From contig JBDRZZ010000040.1 of the NCBI GenBank assembly GCA_039804165.1, forward strand, positions 1 through 7,059: a stretch of 7,059 bases of DNA, read 5' to 3'. Within the stretch, counting starts at the first letter, position 1. Each line of letters opens with the position of its first letter. A program made the position numbers and the translations under genes. Positions 2,264 to 7,059 of this stretch are shown here, one piece after another. The notes beneath the pieces are model-generated. The model had not been told where the DNA came from, searched no databases, and saw only the letters and a program-made list of their open reading frames with translations. This DNA comes from a candidate division WOR-3 bacterium (GTDB lineage: Bacteria; Hydrothermota; UBA3072).

Positions 2264-2734
2264 TTATCTTTCTCCTTCAATTAGTTCCTTAATCTGCGTT
2301 TTTGATAAAGGAAATTTAAATTTTTTTATAATATCTGAAGAAACATCTATCACTATTACTGTATTCTCTAAATTCAACCCTTTAAAAATATTTGTTTTAT
2401 CAAGAATCAAAGGAAAGTTGATATTGTTAGCCTTGACAAAACCTCTTAACTGTTTTTCTATGATTTTTACTTTATTCTCATCTTCTAAATTATCAGAAAG
2501 AACAATCCCAGTCACTATACCTTCCTCATTTTTTTGTTTTTCTAATTTATTGAAAAGAGCAATAAAGGAATCAAGGCAGAAAGAACAAGAGATTGTAGAA
2601 TAGTCAACAAAAATAAGGATTAGTTTTAAGTTTTTAGTCGTTTTATTTATCGTCTGGTTGCCTTGCCCAAAAGAAAAAAACAAAACTAAAATAGTTATAC
2701 ATACCCACGAAAATTTTATTAACCTCACCTTCAT
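2264..2734 (-). CDS. Thioredoxin-fold protein with CSFC motif, exported or membrane-anchored (156 aa)
   Basis: Probable thiol/disulfide-type protein facing the periplasm. An N-terminal hydrophobic segment (about residues 6-24) acts as signal peptide or anchor. A beta strand LKLILIFVDY leads to the redox motif C50-S-F-C53 with the helix SFIALFNKLEKQ after it, the usual start of a thioredoxin fold. The distal part (FPLILDKTNIFKGL, then TVIVIDVSSDIIKKF) fits the later strands. The usual cis-proline before the fourth strand is not visible: the expected T-P position reads T125-V126, whereas the homologue at 4713-5264 has T129-P130. That may change substrate handling. The gene overlaps the propeller gene by ATGA and abuts the membrane-protein gene, so the three are probably coupled. 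The two cysteine pairs in each neighbouring peptide are obvious candidate substrates (inference). Confidence 0.8.
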   Translation of the reverse strand: MKVRLIKFSWVCITILVLFFSFGQGNQTINKTTKNLKLILIFVDYSTISCSFCLDSFIALFNKLEKQKNEEGIVTGIVLSDNLEDENKVKIIEKQLRGFVKANNINFPLILDKTNIFKGLNLENTVIVIDVSSDIIKKFKFPLSKTQIKELIEGER

Positions 2735-3705
2735 ATAAGCTTTGGATACTCTATACGATATTTTTTGAGAACTGTTCCCATACCAGCCCGAGAGTATAGA
2801 TTGTTCTCTTTGTCAATATGTATACAGTGAGTCGATTCTGGCAAAGTGACGGTGTGAAGTAAATTACCATTTTTGTCCAAGATGTAAATATCTCTACTCT
2901 TGTTTTTTGACCACGAGCCTCCAAGTATGTAAATGTTTCCAAAATTATCAAATTCAATATCTTTATAGACTACTTCCATAGGCAATTGAAAATGACCAGC
3001 TCTTGGCTTTTTCATTTTAACCTCTTTTCTCTCAAGAAGAGATTTGGTCCAAATCTTTTTCCCTTTGCTATCAAACTTTTCTATTTTATCCTGAAAGGTA
3101 TAAACAATATAAAAGTTATTTTGGTTATCGATTTCAAATTCCACCATACTTAGCGTGGACTGACTCATATCATCAAATTTTGAATACTCTACTTTATTCT
3201 TTAGAGTCCCTTTTTCATCATAGAAATATATACATTTAGAATTTTCATTGGGGTCAAAAGTAGAAATAGCTATCAAGCTCTTTGAGAGTACTTTAAAATC
3301 TATCACTGGAACCCTCAAGGGTATACTTCCTCTATAGTTAAGTTCTTCATCAAAGATCTGTATTCCAGGCTTATTTTGATCAGTCACATAAAGAAACCCA
3401 TTGAAATATTTAATCAATCTTGGAGCGAGGAATTCTCCTGGACCTTCTCCTCTTCTGCCTACCTTCTTTAATAGGGTTCCGTCTTTGTTAAATTTTTTTA
3501 TGGAATAATCCATTGAATCTGTGACATATATATTCAAGCTCAAATCTGTAGTCACACCAGCCCATTGATAGAGAATATCTTCATCTTCACTTCCAATAGA
3601 AAGAACTTCTTTTAAAATGACTTTTTTTGGCTTATCTTGCCCATATGTGATTGAAGCGAACAAAGAATAGAAAAATGTAAACAATAAAAATATGCATTTA
3701 CTCAT
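2731..3705 (-). CDS. Exported six-bladed beta-propeller protein (324 aa)
   Basis: Central gene of operon B. A signal peptide (MSKCIFLLFTFFYSLFASIT, then YGQDKPKK) is followed by a repeat protein of the six-bladed propeller type. The first blade shows NIYVTDSMDYSIKKFNKDG and then the signature GRRGEGPGEF at residues 83-92. Later blades repeat the strand-turn pattern: GFLYVTDQNKPGIQIFD, NNFYIVYTFQDKIEKFDSKG, GNIYILGGSWSKNKSRDIYI and NNLYSRAGMGT. The cysteine at position 4 is too close to the N-terminus to be a lipobox. Its start lies 8 bp inside the end of the 65-aa peptide gene (ATGAGTAA) with no strong ribosome binding site, so expression probably depends on translation of the peptide. This ties propeller and peptide stoichiometrically. 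Ligand unknown. Confidence 0.88.
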   Translation of the reverse strand: MSKCIFLLFTFFYSLFASITYGQDKPKKVILKEVLSIGSEDEDILYQWAGVTTDLSLNIYVTDSMDYSIKKFNKDGTLLKKVGRRGEGPGEFLAPRLIKYFNGFLYVTDQNKPGIQIFDEELNYRGSIPLRVPVIDFKVLSKSLIAISTFDPNENSKCIYFYDEKGTLKNKVEYSKFDDMSQSTLSMVEFEIDNQNNFYIVYTFQDKIEKFDSKGKKIWTKSLLERKEVKMKKPRAGHFQLPMEVVYKDIEFDNFGNIYILGGSWSKNKSRDIYILDKNGNLLHTVTLPESTHCIHIDKENNLYSRAGMGTVLKKYRIEYPKLI

Positions 3706-3895
3706 AATATTTTATACACCAAATATATCCAATATTGCAATACATCCAACCCCAAAAAGTGTCGCCATATCTTTCAACACAATCCCAATATCCCTCTTCA
3801 CAGGTCTTAGCATTTGCTACCTGCAAAAATGGGATTCCTAAAACCCCCATAAAAAAAGTTAGAATTAAAAAGAGAAATAATAATTTTTTTAACAT
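3698..3895 (-). CDS. Short secreted peptide with twin CX6C core (65 aa)
   Basis: Exported peptide immediately upstream of, and overlapping, the 324-aa propeller. The frame is open to 3976, but the start at 3895-3893 is preferred: GGGAGG lies 5 nt upstream and the product then begins with a signal peptide (MLKKLLFLFLILTFFMGVLG...) ending in ANA before K30. The mature peptide has C32, C39, C53 and C60, as CEEGYWDC and CNIGYIWC, separated by 13 residues rich in aromatics (FWGWMY), and ends IKYYE. The two CX6C units align with each other and with those of the 79- and 62-aa peptides. Four cysteines after cleavage allow two disulfides. No known family recognised; the gene context recalls NVEALA-type peptides of Bacteroides, but the core differs. 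Confidence 0.85.
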   Translation of the reverse strand: MLKKLLFLFLILTFFMGVLGIPFLQVANAKTCEEGYWDCVERYGDTFWGWMYCNIGYIWCIKYYE

Positions 3896-3900
3896 GTCAA

Positions 3901-3906
3901 CCTCCC
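3901..3906 (-). promoter_or_regulatory. Ribosome binding site deciding the start of the 65-aa peptide
   Basis: GGGAGG sits 5 nt before the ATG at 3895-3893. It argues against the upstream open frame (to 3976), which would overlap the preceding peptide gene and place 27 non-hydrophobic residues before the signal peptide. Confidence 0.7.
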
Positions 3907-3947
3907 AGTAAAAATATGGTATTTTAATTTTTTCCTGCAAACTCCTT

Positions 3948-4187
3948 TTACTCCATAAATTCAAGGCACCAAACATAACCTATCATACAGAATACTTCCC
4001 AAGCAAATGGTACTGCAGGATGAATAAACCCCGATAATAAAGCTTCAAATATACATCGCCAATAAGCAGTTTCGCAACTCGCATTCAATGAAGATGGGAA
4101 ACTAAATAGCATTAAAATAATACAAAGTAATACAAAAGCTGTTACTTTAACTAAGCCTTTTTTAAAAATGGTTTTTCGTTCAATCAT
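3948..4187 (-). CDS. Short secreted peptide with twin CX6C core (79 aa)
   Basis: First gene of operon B. The start ATG has a canonical AGGAGG 5 nt upstream. A basic N-terminus (MIERKTIFKKGLVK) precedes a hydrophobic core (VTAFVLLCIILMLFSF) and a likely signal peptidase I site after LNA at residue 36. The mature part has C38, C45, C67 and C74: CETAYWRC and CMIGYVWC, each with Tyr four residues after the first Cys, separated by a 21-residue linker with prolines (IHPAVP). It ends LEFME. The second unit is close to CNIGYIWC of the next peptide, 52 nt downstream, so the two are probably paralogues from tandem duplication. Possible roles include a secreted effector, signal, or structural partner of the propeller; none is demonstrated. 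Confidence 0.85.
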   Translation of the reverse strand: MIERKTIFKKGLVKVTAFVLLCIILMLFSFPSSLNASCETAYWRCIFEALLSGFIHPAVPFAWEVFCMIGYVWCLEFME

Positions 4188-4209: not shown

Positions 4210-4225
4210 TGCCAGTTGTCTGGCA
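4210..4225. repeat. Small perfect hairpin in the leader of operon B
   Basis: TGCCAG-TTGT-CTGGCA forms a 6-bp stem with a 4-nt loop, ending about 22 nt before the first peptide start and just upstream of its AGGAGG. TGCCAG recurs at 4251-4256 in the conserved block. It could be an operator, an mRNA leader structure or a relic of the palindrome family nearby. Confidence 0.45.
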
Positions 4226-4230
4226 TCATT

Positions 4231-4289
4231 AAAATTTATATCAAAGAGCATGCCAGAAATGAGATTGGCTTTTGGAGAGGGATTGGGGA
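4231..4289. repeat. Copy 1 of a ~59-bp conserved intergenic block
   Basis: This stretch matches 6711-6769 without gaps, with about eight mismatches by eye; 32 consecutive bases (4250-4281) are identical. It lies in the same place in both copies: after the palindromes and before a secreted-peptide gene. Homology stops abruptly on the side of the palindromes. Confidence 0.8.
4241..4256 (-). promoter_or_regulatory. Degenerate sigma54-like promoter candidate before operon B
   Basis: The minus strand reads CTGGCATGCTCTTTGA, with a GG and a G(A) at the -24/-12 spacing (10 nt between dinucleotides). The equivalent site at 6721-6736 reads CTGGCATAATTCTTGA. The -12 element has GA where GC is normal, so this is weak. 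TTGATA could instead serve as a -35 box, but no good -10 follows in both copies. Confidence 0.2.
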
Positions 4290-4306: not shown

Positions 4307-4326
4307 AATCGGCTTACAGGCCGATT
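4307..4326. repeat. 20-bp palindrome, type AATCGG, copy 1
   Basis: AATCGGCTTACAGGCCGATT has 7-bp perfect arms (AATCGGC/GCCGATT). It is the isolated member of a set of three at this locus, about 50 bp from the tandem pair. Confidence 0.7.
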
Positions 4327-4375
4327 GAGTTTTTGAAAATCGCTTGAAAAACATTGCCAATCCTGAATGTATTTC

Positions 4376-4415
4376 AATCGGACTGTAATCCGATTAATCG
4401 GACTATGAGCCGATT
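4376..4415. repeat. Two abutting 20-bp palindromes, type AATCGG, copies 2 and 3
   Basis: AATCGGACTGTAATCCGATT (4376-4395) is followed with no gap by AATCGGACTATGAGCCGATT (4396-4415). The first has perfect 7-bp arms and the second perfect 6-bp outer arms. The second encodes the last codons (I-G-S-stop) of the small hypothetical gene. A paired hairpin at a gene end could act in RNA stability or termination, but no T-run follows. Confidence 0.7.
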
Positions 4416-4696
4416 TTATTTCTTCTGTTGTTCAGCTCCTTTATTGTTATGCCCTGTTTCCTCAAAAAATCATGAAACTTCTTATAATCCTTCTCCTCTA
4501 TCTTAAATATTGGAAGTACTCCTTTTAGAGAACCATTGCACTCTTTTAGTCCAAAGGAGATTATCTCCTCAAGCTGATACTTGTTTATCTCATGACTTAA
4601 ATACGCTTTCCTAATATCCCAGAAACTCATTCTCCCTTCCTTCATCTCTTTAAAAATCCTCTTTGAATGCCATTCCAGTTTCTCTTCTACTCCCAT
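4403..4696 (-). CDS. Small hypothetical protein, repeat-module ORF, complete copy (97 aa)
   Basis: Last gene of operon A, 16 nt after the thioredoxin-like stop; AAGG about 10 nt upstream is a modest ribosome binding site. The product is soluble and charged with mainly helical character: an N-terminal helix (EEKLEWHSKRIFKEMKEG), a middle part (FWDIRKAYLSHEI), then LEEIISFGLKECNGSLKGV and KIEEKDYKKFHDFLRKQGI. It has no signal peptide or TM segment, unlike its neighbours. I do not recognise the family. A second copy at the right edge matches 99 bp (4474-4572) exactly, then diverges: the C-terminal tail here ends NNRRNKIGS, with the last residues encoded by a palindrome. Such identity including silent sites points to recent duplication or gene conversion. 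A nucleic-acid-binding role linked to the palindromes is conceivable but unsupported. Confidence 0.7.
   Translation of the reverse strand: MGVEEKLEWHSKRIFKEMKEGRMSFWDIRKAYLSHEINKYQLEEIISFGLKECNGSLKGVLPIFKIEEKDYKKFHDFLRKQGITIKELNNRRNKIGS
4474..4572. repeat. 99-bp identical repeat inside the small hypothetical gene (copy 1)
   Basis: By eye this is identical base for base to 6961-7059, the right edge of the window, so the true repeat may be longer. It encodes about 32 residues from EEIISFG to DYKKF. The match stops sharply at 4473/6960. Confidence 0.85.
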
Positions 4697-4712
4697 CTCT
4701 TTCTTGCCTTTT

Positions 4713-5264
4713 CTATTTTCTTTTTGAGTAATAATGACTTGTAAGGATTTCTTTTAATCTAGCTTCTCTAAGAAGTTCAAGTGCTTCAAAATAGAAACTT
4801 TCCTGTAATTTCTTGTCTGAAAAACTTGGTGACATATAAAGAATTTTACCACTTCTATCCATTATTATCTTAAATGGCGTAATTGAAATATTAAATCTGT
4901 TTTTTATTTTCCCGTTTCTATCGTGGCCAACAGGGAAAGCTATTTCTACTTTTTCCTTGAGTGCTCTAATATCTTCTTCTTGTGGAATTAGACCTAATAT
5001 AAATATCTCCTCCCTCTTTAAATCCTTGAAAAGCTTATTCCAGTAATATATTTCTTCTATGCAATTTCTACATTCGTTATTCGAGAAATAAATAATAAAG
5101 GTTAAAACACTCTCTCTTGATGGAATTGAAACTCTTTCTTTCAAACCTTTTATGAATATTTTTTCAAAAACTGAGTTTCTATTGCAATCCTTCACTTTTG
5201 AAACTAAAAAAACATTTATTATTACCAGCAAAATTGATAATGCTATCCACCAACCTTTTTTCAA
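4713..5264 (-). CDS. Membrane-anchored thioredoxin-like protein with CRNC motif (183 aa)
   Basis: Probable TlpA/redoxin-like thiol-disulfide protein. An N-terminal anchor (GWWIALSILLVIINVFLV, residues 4-21) puts the domain in the periplasm. Strand VLTFIIYFSNNE leads to the redox pair C65-R-N-C68, followed by the helix IEEIYYWNKLFKDL. Strand IFILGLIP and the segment VEIAFPVGHD come next. Then the cis-proline context NISITPFKIIMDRSGKIL (P130) and a C-terminal helix complete a thioredoxin fold. The start is TTG at 5264-5262, overlapping the propeller stop as TTGA with AAAGG about 9 nt upstream; there is no in-frame ATG nearby. The rare start and overlap suggest coupled, low-level expression. Likely job: redox handling of cysteines in exported partners such as the adjacent peptides (inference). 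Confidence 0.85.
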   Translation of the reverse strand: MKKGWWIALSILLVIINVFLVSKVKDCNRNSVFEKIFIKGLKERVSIPSRESVLTFIIYFSNNECRNCIEEIYYWNKLFKDLKREEIFILGLIPQEEDIRALKEKVEIAFPVGHDRNGKIKNRFNISITPFKIIMDRSGKILYMSPSFSDKKLQESFYFEALELLREARLKEILTSHYYSKRK

Positions 5265-6322
5265 GGTAATACCTTTGTAACTTTGTATTTAGAAAACCTA
5301 TATTTGGGTTCTTTTTCATCATCAAGAGTTTCTAAGATGTAAATTTTATCCTCATGATTACTGTCAATCATAAAAAAATGCTGGTAGGAAGATTTCCCGA
5401 TTCCTTCAATTTTCTTTCCATTCTCTAATAAGTTTCCATCGCAGTCATAACATCGCAAAAAATACTCCCACTTATTTAGCTTATTATTGAAGTTAGTAAT
5501 TATCACTCCTACAAGATCTTTTAGAGCAAATATCCCCGAGACCCAGCTGAAAGAACGACGCCATCTCTCATCCGCTTCCATCATCTCCGATTGGCTATTT
5601 CCTTTGTATATTAAGTCAAAATCTTTAGTTTTTTTACATTGGTAAAAATAAGAAGGGTTTTCTCCAAATTTTCTTACAAGTTCTCCAGATTTATTAAATT
5701 TGAAGACCTTAACCTCCCTTTCCTTTACAAAATAAATCTCTTCATTATTAGAAATATCCAGAAACGACAAGGAATCAGTAACCCTGTTCCACATATCATC
5801 TCTTGGGTATTGGAAAGGAATTAGTGCCTTTATCACTTTTCCTGAAAAATCAATAATAATACCAATAAACTCTTTACCATTTTTTTCTACAAAATAACCA
5901 TTTGAAATAATCCTGTCTTTACTTATTACAAAGGTATCATTTGGACTGAGAAGATAAAAGATCCTTTTGATCTCTCTGAATGTTCTATCAAATATTATAT
6001 ATTTCAATGCATGAACATCTTGAACACATATCCATTTGTCATTAACATCAATTCTAAATGGATACATAAATTCCCCTGGTCCTCCTCCCTTGCTTCCGAA
6101 AGTTTTAAGAAGTTTTCCATCCTTGTTGTAAATTTTAATATTAGAAGAATCTCCATCAACAACATAAATATTCTCTTTTTCGTCTACTGCTATATCTCGT
6201 GCATTAGTAATAAACTCACTTTTTTGCTCTAAGTAAAACTGAGAAAGAAGCTCTATTCTTATCTTTCCGTTCAAAAAAGAAGCTCCAAAAAGAAATAGCC
6301 ATAAAAAACATTTCCTTTTCAT
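5261..6322 (-). CDS. Exported six-bladed beta-propeller protein (353 aa)
   Basis: Central gene of operon A and paralogue of the 324-aa propeller. The ATG at 6322-6320 has GAGAGG about 5 nt upstream. An N-terminal hydrophobic stretch (KCFLWLFLFGASFLNG, residues 4-19) acts as signal peptide; C5 is too early for a lipobox. Blade one reads ARDIAVDEKENIYVVDGDSSNIKIYNKDGKLLKTFG, running into the signature GSKGGGPGEF at residues 76-85. Later repeats include NDKWICVQDVHALKYIIFD, NNEEIYFVKEREVKVFKFN and EDKIYILETLDDEKEPKYRF. Organisation matches operon B: peptide gene before it, thioredoxin-like gene overlapping its end. A G-rich tract in the gap before it may affect its expression. Ligand and partner unknown. 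Confidence 0.88.
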   Translation of the reverse strand: MKRKCFLWLFLFGASFLNGKIRIELLSQFYLEQKSEFITNARDIAVDEKENIYVVDGDSSNIKIYNKDGKLLKTFGSKGGGPGEFMYPFRIDVNDKWICVQDVHALKYIIFDRTFREIKRIFYLLSPNDTFVISKDRIISNGYFVEKNGKEFIGIIIDFSGKVIKALIPFQYPRDDMWNRVTDSLSFLDISNNEEIYFVKEREVKVFKFNKSGELVRKFGENPSYFYQCKKTKDFDLIYKGNSQSEMMEADERWRRSFSWVSGIFALKDLVGVIITNFNNKLNKWEYFLRCYDCDGNLLENGKKIEGIGKSSYQHFFMIDSNHEDKIYILETLDDEKEPKYRFSKYKVTKVLP

Positions 6323-6364
6323 TTATTCCTCTCAATTTTTTAGATTTTAATTTTATCATATATT

Positions 6365-6382
6365 CCCTACCCTTTCCCACCC
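6365..6382 (-). promoter_or_regulatory. G-quadruplex-forming motif in the peptide-propeller gap
   Basis: The minus (mRNA-sense) strand reads GGGTGGGAAAGGGTAGGG: four G3 runs with loops of 1, 3 and 2 nt, the strict quadruplex pattern with very short loops. It lies 17 nt after the peptide stop and about 42 nt before the propeller ATG, in otherwise very AT-rich sequence. Motif is seen; a regulatory role is inferred. Confidence 0.6.
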
Positions 6383-6399
6383 TTTATTGATTTTTGGTT

Positions 6400-6588
6400 T
6401 TAATCAGGATAAACGACAGAACAATTTAGAGGATAGACCAACCAACATGTCTCAATAGGCCAACTTGGGTGACGAATTCCAAATACGGCTTTAGCTTCTA
6501 CCCTTTGAGGAAGGAAAAAATAAATTAACCCCCATAAAGCAATAACCAAAAGGGCACTAAAAAGTGTTTTTTCAATTATTCTTCTCAT
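6400..6588 (-). CDS. Short secreted peptide with a single C-x3-Y-x3-C unit (62 aa)
   Basis: First solid gene of operon A, with AGGAGG 8 nt before the ATG. The N-terminus MRRIIEKTLFSALLVIALWG continues through a hydrophobic core to LPQRVEA at about residue 32, a plausible signal peptidase site before KAVFG. The mature part has only two cysteines, C48 and C56, as CWLVYPLNC, with Tyr four residues after the first Cys as in the other three peptides but 7 rather than 6 residues between cysteines. The tail SVVYPD keeps the C-terminal aromatic. It therefore looks like a half-size relative of the twin-CX6C peptides. RVEAKA recalls the NVEALA motif of Bacteroides peptides that also neighbour propellers; this may be coincidence. 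Position before the propeller matches operon B. Confidence 0.75.
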   Translation of the reverse strand: MRRIIEKTLFSALLVIALWGLIYFFLPQRVEAKAVFGIRHPSWPIETCWLVYPLNCSVVYPD

Positions 6589-6611
6589 TTTAATTTCCTC
6601 CTTTCAGAAAT

Positions 6612-6707
6612 TTAATAGTGAATTCCAATACCCATTTGCCAATACTTTGAAGATTGTTCCCACCTATTTGCTATCACCTCCTTTCGCTTTAGAGTTAAAA
6701 CCTTCAT
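6612..6707 (-). CDS. Possible 31-aa leader ORF before operon A
   Basis: ATG at 6707-6705, with a modest AGGA about 9-10 nt upstream, opens a 31-codon frame (MKVLTLKRKEVIANRWEQSS..., ending MGIGIHY). It stops 23 nt before the peptide ATG. A striking AAAGGAGGTGAT, close to a perfect anti-SD complement, lies inside it with no good start 5-9 nt downstream. It may be a leader peptide, a decayed gene, or chance; there is no signal peptide. Confidence 0.25.
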   Translation of the reverse strand: MKVLTLKRKEVIANRWEQSSKYWQMGIGIHY

Positions 6708-6710
6708 ATA

Positions 6711-6769
6711 AAAATTCCTATCAAGAATTATGCCAGAAATGAGATTGGCTTTTGGAGAGGGTTTGGAGA
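6711..6769. repeat. Copy 2 of the ~59-bp conserved intergenic block
   Basis: Matches 4231-4289 without gaps, with 6730-6761 identical to 4250-4281. The candidate sigma54-like site at 6721-6736 falls inside it. Beyond 6769 the two loci differ except for the palindrome layout. Confidence 0.8.
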
Positions 6770-6785
6770 TTTTATTATTTTGGGA

Positions 6786-6805
6786 ATTCTGACTCTGGTC
6801 AGAAC
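6786..6805. repeat. 20-bp palindrome, type ATTCTGAC, copy 1
   Basis: ATTCTGACTCTGGTCAGAAC has 7-bp perfect arms (TTCTGAC/GTCAGAA) and a 4-nt loop. It is the isolated member of the set at this locus, equivalent in position to 4307-4326. Confidence 0.75.
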
Positions 6806-6868
6806 GAATTTTTCAAAAAACTTATTAACCTTATCTAAACCATTGGTTTTATTAGAAAATCTTAACAT

Positions 6869-7059
6869 TTATTTTTTCTGACTGTAGTCAGAACGATTCT
6901 GACTCTGGTCAGAATTTTTGAGATTCTGCAATGTTATACCTTGTGCATGAAGAAAATTCAGAAACTTCTTATAATCCTTCTCCTCTATCTTAAATATTGG
7001 AAGTACTCCTTTTAGAGAACCATTGCACTCTTTTAGTCCAAAGGAGATTATCTCCTCAA
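6869..7059 (-). CDS. Small hypothetical protein, second copy, 3' part only (partial)
   Basis: Partial gene entering from the right edge; 62 complete sense codons and a TAA stop (6871-6869) are visible. Residues EEIISFG to DYKKF are identical to the complete copy at 4403-4696, and the 99 bp encoding them are identical at DNA level. After that the copies diverge: here LNFLHAQGITLQNLKN, then a tail SDQSQNRSDYSQKK encoded almost wholly by two palindromes (6875-6915). The tail is 7 residues longer than that of the other copy. The N-terminus and upstream partner genes lie outside the window; by analogy a propeller/thioredoxin cassette may precede it. No family recognised. Confidence 0.65.
   Translation of the reverse strand, partial: EEIISFGLKECNGSLKGVLPIFKIEEKDYKKFLNFLHAQGITLQNLKNSDQSQNRSDYSQKK
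6875..6915. repeat. Two near-abutting 20-bp palindromes, type TTCTGAC, copies 2 and 3
   Basis: TTTCTGACTGTAGTCAGAAC (6875-6894) and ATTCTGACTCTGGTCAGAAT (6896-6915) are separated by one base. Arms are perfect over 7 and 8 bp. On the minus strand they are read in frame as the repeated tail SDQSQN/SDYSQK of the partial gene. Layout matches 4376-4415. Confidence 0.75.
6961..7059. repeat. 99-bp identical repeat inside the small hypothetical gene (copy 2)
   Basis: Identical by eye to 4474-4572 and cut by the window edge, so the full extent is unknown. The two copies are in direct orientation about 2.5 kb apart and flank operon A, so recombination between them would delete or duplicate that cassette. 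Confidence 0.85.

Follow-up and report, generated by a model that had tools for sequence, protein, structure and literature searches.

The two triplets of dyads examined here are predicted to be enhancers (UAS) of sigma-54 promoters, with a private bEBP specificity for each copy of a duplicated cassette; we give this reading a probability of roughly 0.8. They lie in a window of 7059 bp, the whole stretch of DNA analysed, which is the entire contig C40 of a 1.96 Mb genome in 49 contigs, and every recognised gene in the window is on the minus strand. The triplets are best read as DNA sites and not as RNA hairpins. The prediction is drawn from the sequence, namely from the sites themselves, the promoter motifs, their spacing and uniqueness, the bEBP genes that abut two of the four triplets, and the way in which recognition helix and sites have diverged together.

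Dyad triplets in the window

The initial annotation described two triplets, each with one isolated and two adjacent dyads, and this layout was present at both loci (Table 1). It had given all dyads as 20 bp long with the pair abutting; this holds for locus 1, where the two distal dyads abut, but the dyads of locus 2 are 18 bp long and its close pair is separated by a 3 bp gap. Similarity of the central bases was likewise found at one site per triplet, whereas the remaining centres vary. The observation that the arms are uniform inside a locus and different between loci was borne out: three non-overlapping dyads with the same arms were obtained in 0 of 4000 dinucleotide shuffles of either locus, and three same-arm dyads within 145 bp in 0 of 1542 control windows from the same genome. 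Without mismatch, AATCGG-N8-CCGATT was confined genome-wide to the three sites of locus 1, and TGACTSTRGTCA to the three sites of locus 2. This search excludes, for the AATCGG and TTCTGAC types, a random spread of dyads with mixed arms through the genome. The second distal dyad of locus 1 overlaps the stop codon of an ORF of 97 aa.

Table 1. Positions of the dyads, promoter elements and genes in the window.
Feature	Position	Strand	Remarks
6-bladed beta-propeller protein (DUF5128), operon 1	2731-3705	-	
Second Cys-containing signal-like peptide, operon 1	3698-3976	-	downstream of the 79-aa peptide gene
First gene, operon 1	3948-4187	-	79-aa Cys-containing peptide, signal-like N-terminus
Small second dyad, 5' leader of operon 1	4210-4225	-	TGCCAGACAACTGGCA, near the ribosome-binding site
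Sigma-54-type promoter, operon 1	4239-4257	-	TCTGGCATGCTCTTTGATA (GG-N10-GA)
Conserved block, operon 1	4250-4281	-	CCCTCTCCAAAAGCCAATCTCATTTCTGGCAT; covers the -24 element and the bases just before it
Locus 1 promoter-proximal dyad	4307-4326	-	20 bp, AATCGGCTTACAGGCCGATT (+ strand); candidate UAS; centre -62 from GG
Locus 1 distal dyad	4376-4395	-	20 bp, AATCGGACTGTAATCCGATT (+ strand); candidate UAS; centre -131 from GG
Locus 1 second distal dyad	4396-4415	-	20 bp, AATCGGACTATGAGCCGATT (+ strand); candidate UAS; centre -151 from GG
97-aa all-helical protein, no recognised family	4403-4696	-	ends inside UAS 1
Thioredoxin/AhpC-TSA-like protein, operon 2	4713-5264	-	
6-bladed beta-propeller protein (DUF5128), operon 2	5261-6322	-	
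First gene, operon 2	6400-6588	-	62-aa Cys-containing peptide
Sigma-54-type promoter, operon 2	6719-6737	-	TCTGGCATAATTCTTGATA
Conserved block, operon 2	6730-6761	-	upstream of and including the -24 element
Locus 2 promoter-proximal dyad	6787-6804	-	18 bp, TTCTGACTCTGGTCAGAA (+ strand); candidate UAS; centre -61 from GG
97-aa protein, second partial copy	6869-7057	-	reads through the UAS 2 distal dyads
Locus 2 distal dyad	6876-6893	-	18 bp, TTCTGACTGTAGTCAGAA (+ strand); candidate UAS; centre -150 from GG
Locus 2 second distal dyad	6897-6914	-	18 bp, TTCTGACTCTGGTCAGAA (+ strand); candidate UAS; centre -171 from GG

Sigma-54-type promoters and downstream operons

On the minus strand, each triplet is followed by a sigma-54-type (-24/-12) promoter with the motif TCTGGCATNNNNYTTGATA, and these promoters explain the layout of the dyads. 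The order along this strand is the triplet, then TCTGGCAT-N4-YTTGATA, then the gene of a small Cys-containing peptide with its ribosome-binding site. A search of the 1.96 Mb genome gave exactly four perfect matches to TCTGGCATNNNNYTTGATA, of which two are in the window and one each in contigs C39 and C49; all four have a dyad triplet with its own arm type upstream and a small Cys-peptide gene downstream. In sigma-54 promoters, N10 separates the GG at -24 from the GC at -12. The GG-N10 spacing is exact in all four copies, but the -12 dinucleotide is GA and not GC; the -12 element is thus TTGA in each copy instead of the usual TTGC, which counts against the sigma-54 reading. The genome encodes RpoN, and seven of its 13 matches to PF00158 are clear bEBPs.

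A conserved block of 32 nt (CCCTCTCCANAAGCCAATC) stands between the UAS and the -24 element in all four cassettes and is possibly the site of another factor. It has exactly four matches in the genome, at the same four cassettes as TCTGGCATNNNNYTTGATA, and had no match in five related genomes of the genus and family.

After the promoter, the genes for a Cys-containing peptide, a 6-bladed beta-propeller protein and a thioredoxin-like protein follow in this order. No radical SAM maturase was found in the window operons, and the 79-aa peptide of operon 1 gave no family match. The 97-aa protein, for which the AlphaFold model is helical with a mean pLDDT of 87.6, was considered as a possible regulator but has no Pfam match, no recognised DNA-binding domain and no convincing fold match. 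Its ORF was found only in this genome among 60 searched, and no plasmid or viral relative was found. Separately, the small dyad TGCCAGACAACTGGCA in the leader of operon 1 also occurs in C49, and C39 has TGCCTGATGACAGGCA with the arms TGCCTG/CAGGCA at the corresponding place. This leader dyad could be a genuine RNA hairpin, because the arms have changed on both sides in C39.

Two further cassettes with adjacent bEBP genes

The cassettes of C39 and C49 have a plan similar to those of the window and add two new arm types, so that the proposed rule of preserved dyad symmetry with locus-specific arms extends to two more loci. In C39 the arms are TTACGA/TCGTAA, with three exact sites confined genome-wide to that contig; in C49 they are TGWCC/GGACA. 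Two sites of C49 are imperfect dyads and this locus is missed by the strict same-arm count. Its 16-mers were therefore evaluated separately, and three related 16-mers appeared in 0 of 2000 random sequences.

In both contigs a bEBP gene is located directly upstream of the triplet, its end falling at the first dyad. The two bEBPs have a sigma-54 interaction domain, a Fis-type HTH and the GAYTGA loop, preceded by about 45 unassigned N-terminal residues, and no sensor domain is recognised; the C49 protein matches PF00158 (1.5e-47) and PF02954 (4.8e-12) and carries GAYTGA, a loop of the GAFTGA type, in its translation, as a bEBP should. The C39 gene (L029, 6357-7471, minus strand) has lost one base from an A-run near codon 60, a frameshift that may represent inactivation, phase variation or an assembly error. 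The C39 operon (L029, 476-6046, minus strand) encodes a Cys-rich peptide of 63 aa, a beta-propeller protein, TIGR04148, TIGR04150 and an ABC transporter. Since the matches to TIGR04148 (radical SAM peptide maturase) and TIGR04150 (its pseudo-rSAM partner) are above the NCBI curated cut-offs, at least this operon looks like a modified-peptide system and is a candidate for one.

No bEBP adjoins either window locus, where the neighbouring gene encodes the 97-aa protein, and none was found in the assembly for the AATCGG or TTCTGAC arm types; this counts against the enhancer reading for these loci. Contig C40 ends inside sequence identical to its own other copy, and C49 starts where its identity with C39 starts. 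Because these contig ends fall at repeated sequence, it is plausible that the bEBPs for the window loci exist and were lost from the assembly as repeat copies. At E 1e-66, none of 146 other genomes in the phylum contained the bEBP subfamily, and hence the cassette family looks lineage-specific or recently acquired. Viral contigs did not contain the subfamily either. Outside this genome, the nearest protein in the genome_contigs collection is 36% identical, and no dyad triplet was present at those of its sigma-54-like matches that were checked.

Geometry of the sites

The centre of the proximal dyad is at -62 and -61 in the two window loci, at -61 in C49 and at -62 in C39, counted from the first G of the -24 GG. 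This spacing is fixed although the sequence between the dyad and the conserved block is not conserved. The remaining centres lie between -82 and -171, and the members of the close pairs are 19-21 bp apart, about two helical turns; the close pair is promoter-proximal in C49 and distal in the other three loci. Enhancers of bEBPs consist of dyads, frequently more than one, at about 80-200 bp before the start. The centres observed here, 61-171 bp upstream of GG, would fall about 87-197 bp before the expected start, and the three dyads of each locus agree with the distance and number expected of an enhancer.

Half-site agreement, out of 6, was 5.4 within a site, 5.5 within a locus and 2.1 between loci. 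The paired arm changes, which had been described as compensatory, are better read as changes in two half-sites, each of which would be contacted by one of two identical subunits of a single activator. The suggestion that the arm sequence is an identity tag was right in spirit and describes activator specificity fairly well.

Recognition helix and sites diverge together

The bEBP genes of C39 and C49 share about 94% DNA identity over most of 1.2 kb. From upstream of the gene through the AAA+ domain, identity is mostly 90-99% per 100 nt, with dips to 82-83% in the linker and around the start codon. It drops to 65% and then 50% over the HTH end with the recognition helix and over the UAS, and recovers at the promoter block. 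Over the last 18 codons there is an excess of amino-acid-changing differences (9 of 41 sites vs 23 of 672; Fisher p 3e-5). Silent differences are enriched there too (7 of 13 vs 37 of 186; p 0.01), and this raised silent rate suggests, from small counts in one gene pair, that the segment was replaced or spared by recombination besides any selection on the helix. The joint divergence of helix and sites was seen in this one bEBP pair. The window loci show the same shape, in that the 97-aa gene is identical for about 100 nt, diverges through its end and the dyads, and regains identity at the promoter block.

The divergence would reflect selection or recombination acting on HTH and UAS as one unit. 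More tentatively, and rather doubtfully at present, the HTH-coding gene end and the UAS triplet might form one physically linked specificity cassette, which recombination would exchange whole, or shield from gene conversion, during homogenisation of the activator body and the promoter. An expanding set of mutually orthogonal sigma-54 circuits would then arise within a single genome.

Alternative explanations

The initial annotation allowed for pairing of the dyads in RNA. The dyads might then be terminators, attenuators or processing sites: they lie between the operons, hairpins can form, and three terminator-like matches do overlap dyads. These matches are all on the plus strand, with the genes on the minus strand, and none qualifies as an intrinsic terminator, which needs a T run after the hairpin on the coding strand; the coding strand has no terminator tail. 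Moreover, the dyads precede the promoter at a fixed distance, some are palindromes without a loop (TTACGATATATCGTAA), and an A/A mismatch is tolerated (TGACC...GGACA). Three arm types occur nowhere else in the genome, and Rfam gave no RNA family match in the window. We thus regard RNA hairpins as very unlikely. The same confinement of three arm types, with no exact copies elsewhere, and the position fixed relative to promoters at four loci speak against an origin of the dyads as REP-like or mobile palindromic repeats that multiplied inside a locus. Near-identical copies within a locus would fit such repeats, but many scattered copies were not found, and this origin appears extremely improbable.

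Another regulator, for example a repressor, might instead use the dyads as operators, with the nearby sigma-54 promoters served by a different activator. The window loci lack a cognate bEBP in the assembly, and the conserved block without assigned role stands between sites and promoter; both would suit this explanation. However, the neighbour of the sites in C39 and C49 is a bEBP with a recognition helix that diverges along with them, positions near -87 and from -155 to -200 fit an enhancer better than an operator, and a bEBP is required by any sigma-54 promoter (PMC4641369). An operator function is hence unlikely.

Proposed function and comparison with known systems

In the enhancer reading, each dyad of 16-20 bp would bind a bEBP dimer via the C-terminal Fis-type HTH. 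Relative to the expected start, one site at the window loci would be fixed about 87 bp upstream, and the other two would lie at about 155-200 bp. The three sites would gather the bEBP ring, and looping would bring it into contact with the sigma-54 polymerase. The ring would then fire the operon for a small Cys-rich exported peptide, a 6-bladed beta-propeller protein and a thioredoxin-like protein, to which C39 adds a radical SAM peptide maturase. The cassette exists in at least four copies; each arm sequence would be matched to its own paralogous bEBP, and sister operons would answer to different activators and be switched on separately. The triplets would accordingly mark peptide operons that may be turned on singly.

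How duplicated regulators avoid cross-talk is a long-standing question, and these cassettes appear to offer a natural and very compact case: sister activators with about 94% DNA identity over most of their length differ most at the recognition helix, and three neighbouring sites each change to match. Sigma-54 enhancers are of a known kind; the joint switch of recognition helix and enhancer is the neat part. The C39/C49 pairs are ready material for recognition rules of Fis-type HTHs and for orthogonal sigma-54 parts.

NorR has three enhancer sites beside its own gene, all of which are required (PMC2941729), and this precedent supports three sites beside an activator gene as an enhancer. The norVW system of E. 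coli shares with the present cassettes three bEBP sites upstream of a sigma-54 promoter and an adjacent activator gene (PMC2941729). NorR, however, has a single locus, one site type and a GAF sensor domain, whereas here the site type differs among several sister loci and the activators lack a recognised sensor domain. PspF and HrpR-HrpS, bEBPs without a cis regulatory domain, share the AAA+ domain, short N-terminal region and C-terminal HTH (PMC7057263); the present proteins differ in their peptide/beta-propeller operon targets, their duplication with a changed recognition helix and their approximately 45 unassigned N-terminal residues. Most one-component EBPs of Desulfovibrio vulgaris are beside a sigma-54 promoter with their own binding motif upstream, a precedent for motifs private to single bEBPs (PMC4641369). 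The motifs there were derived from orthologues across species (PMC4641369), whereas near-identical paralogues within one genome are contrasted here. Finally, C39 encodes both TIGR04148 and TIGR04150 next to a Cys-rich peptide, as in the radical SAM peptide systems of these families, from which the present case differs in the preceding sigma-54 cassette and in window operons that carry no maturase.
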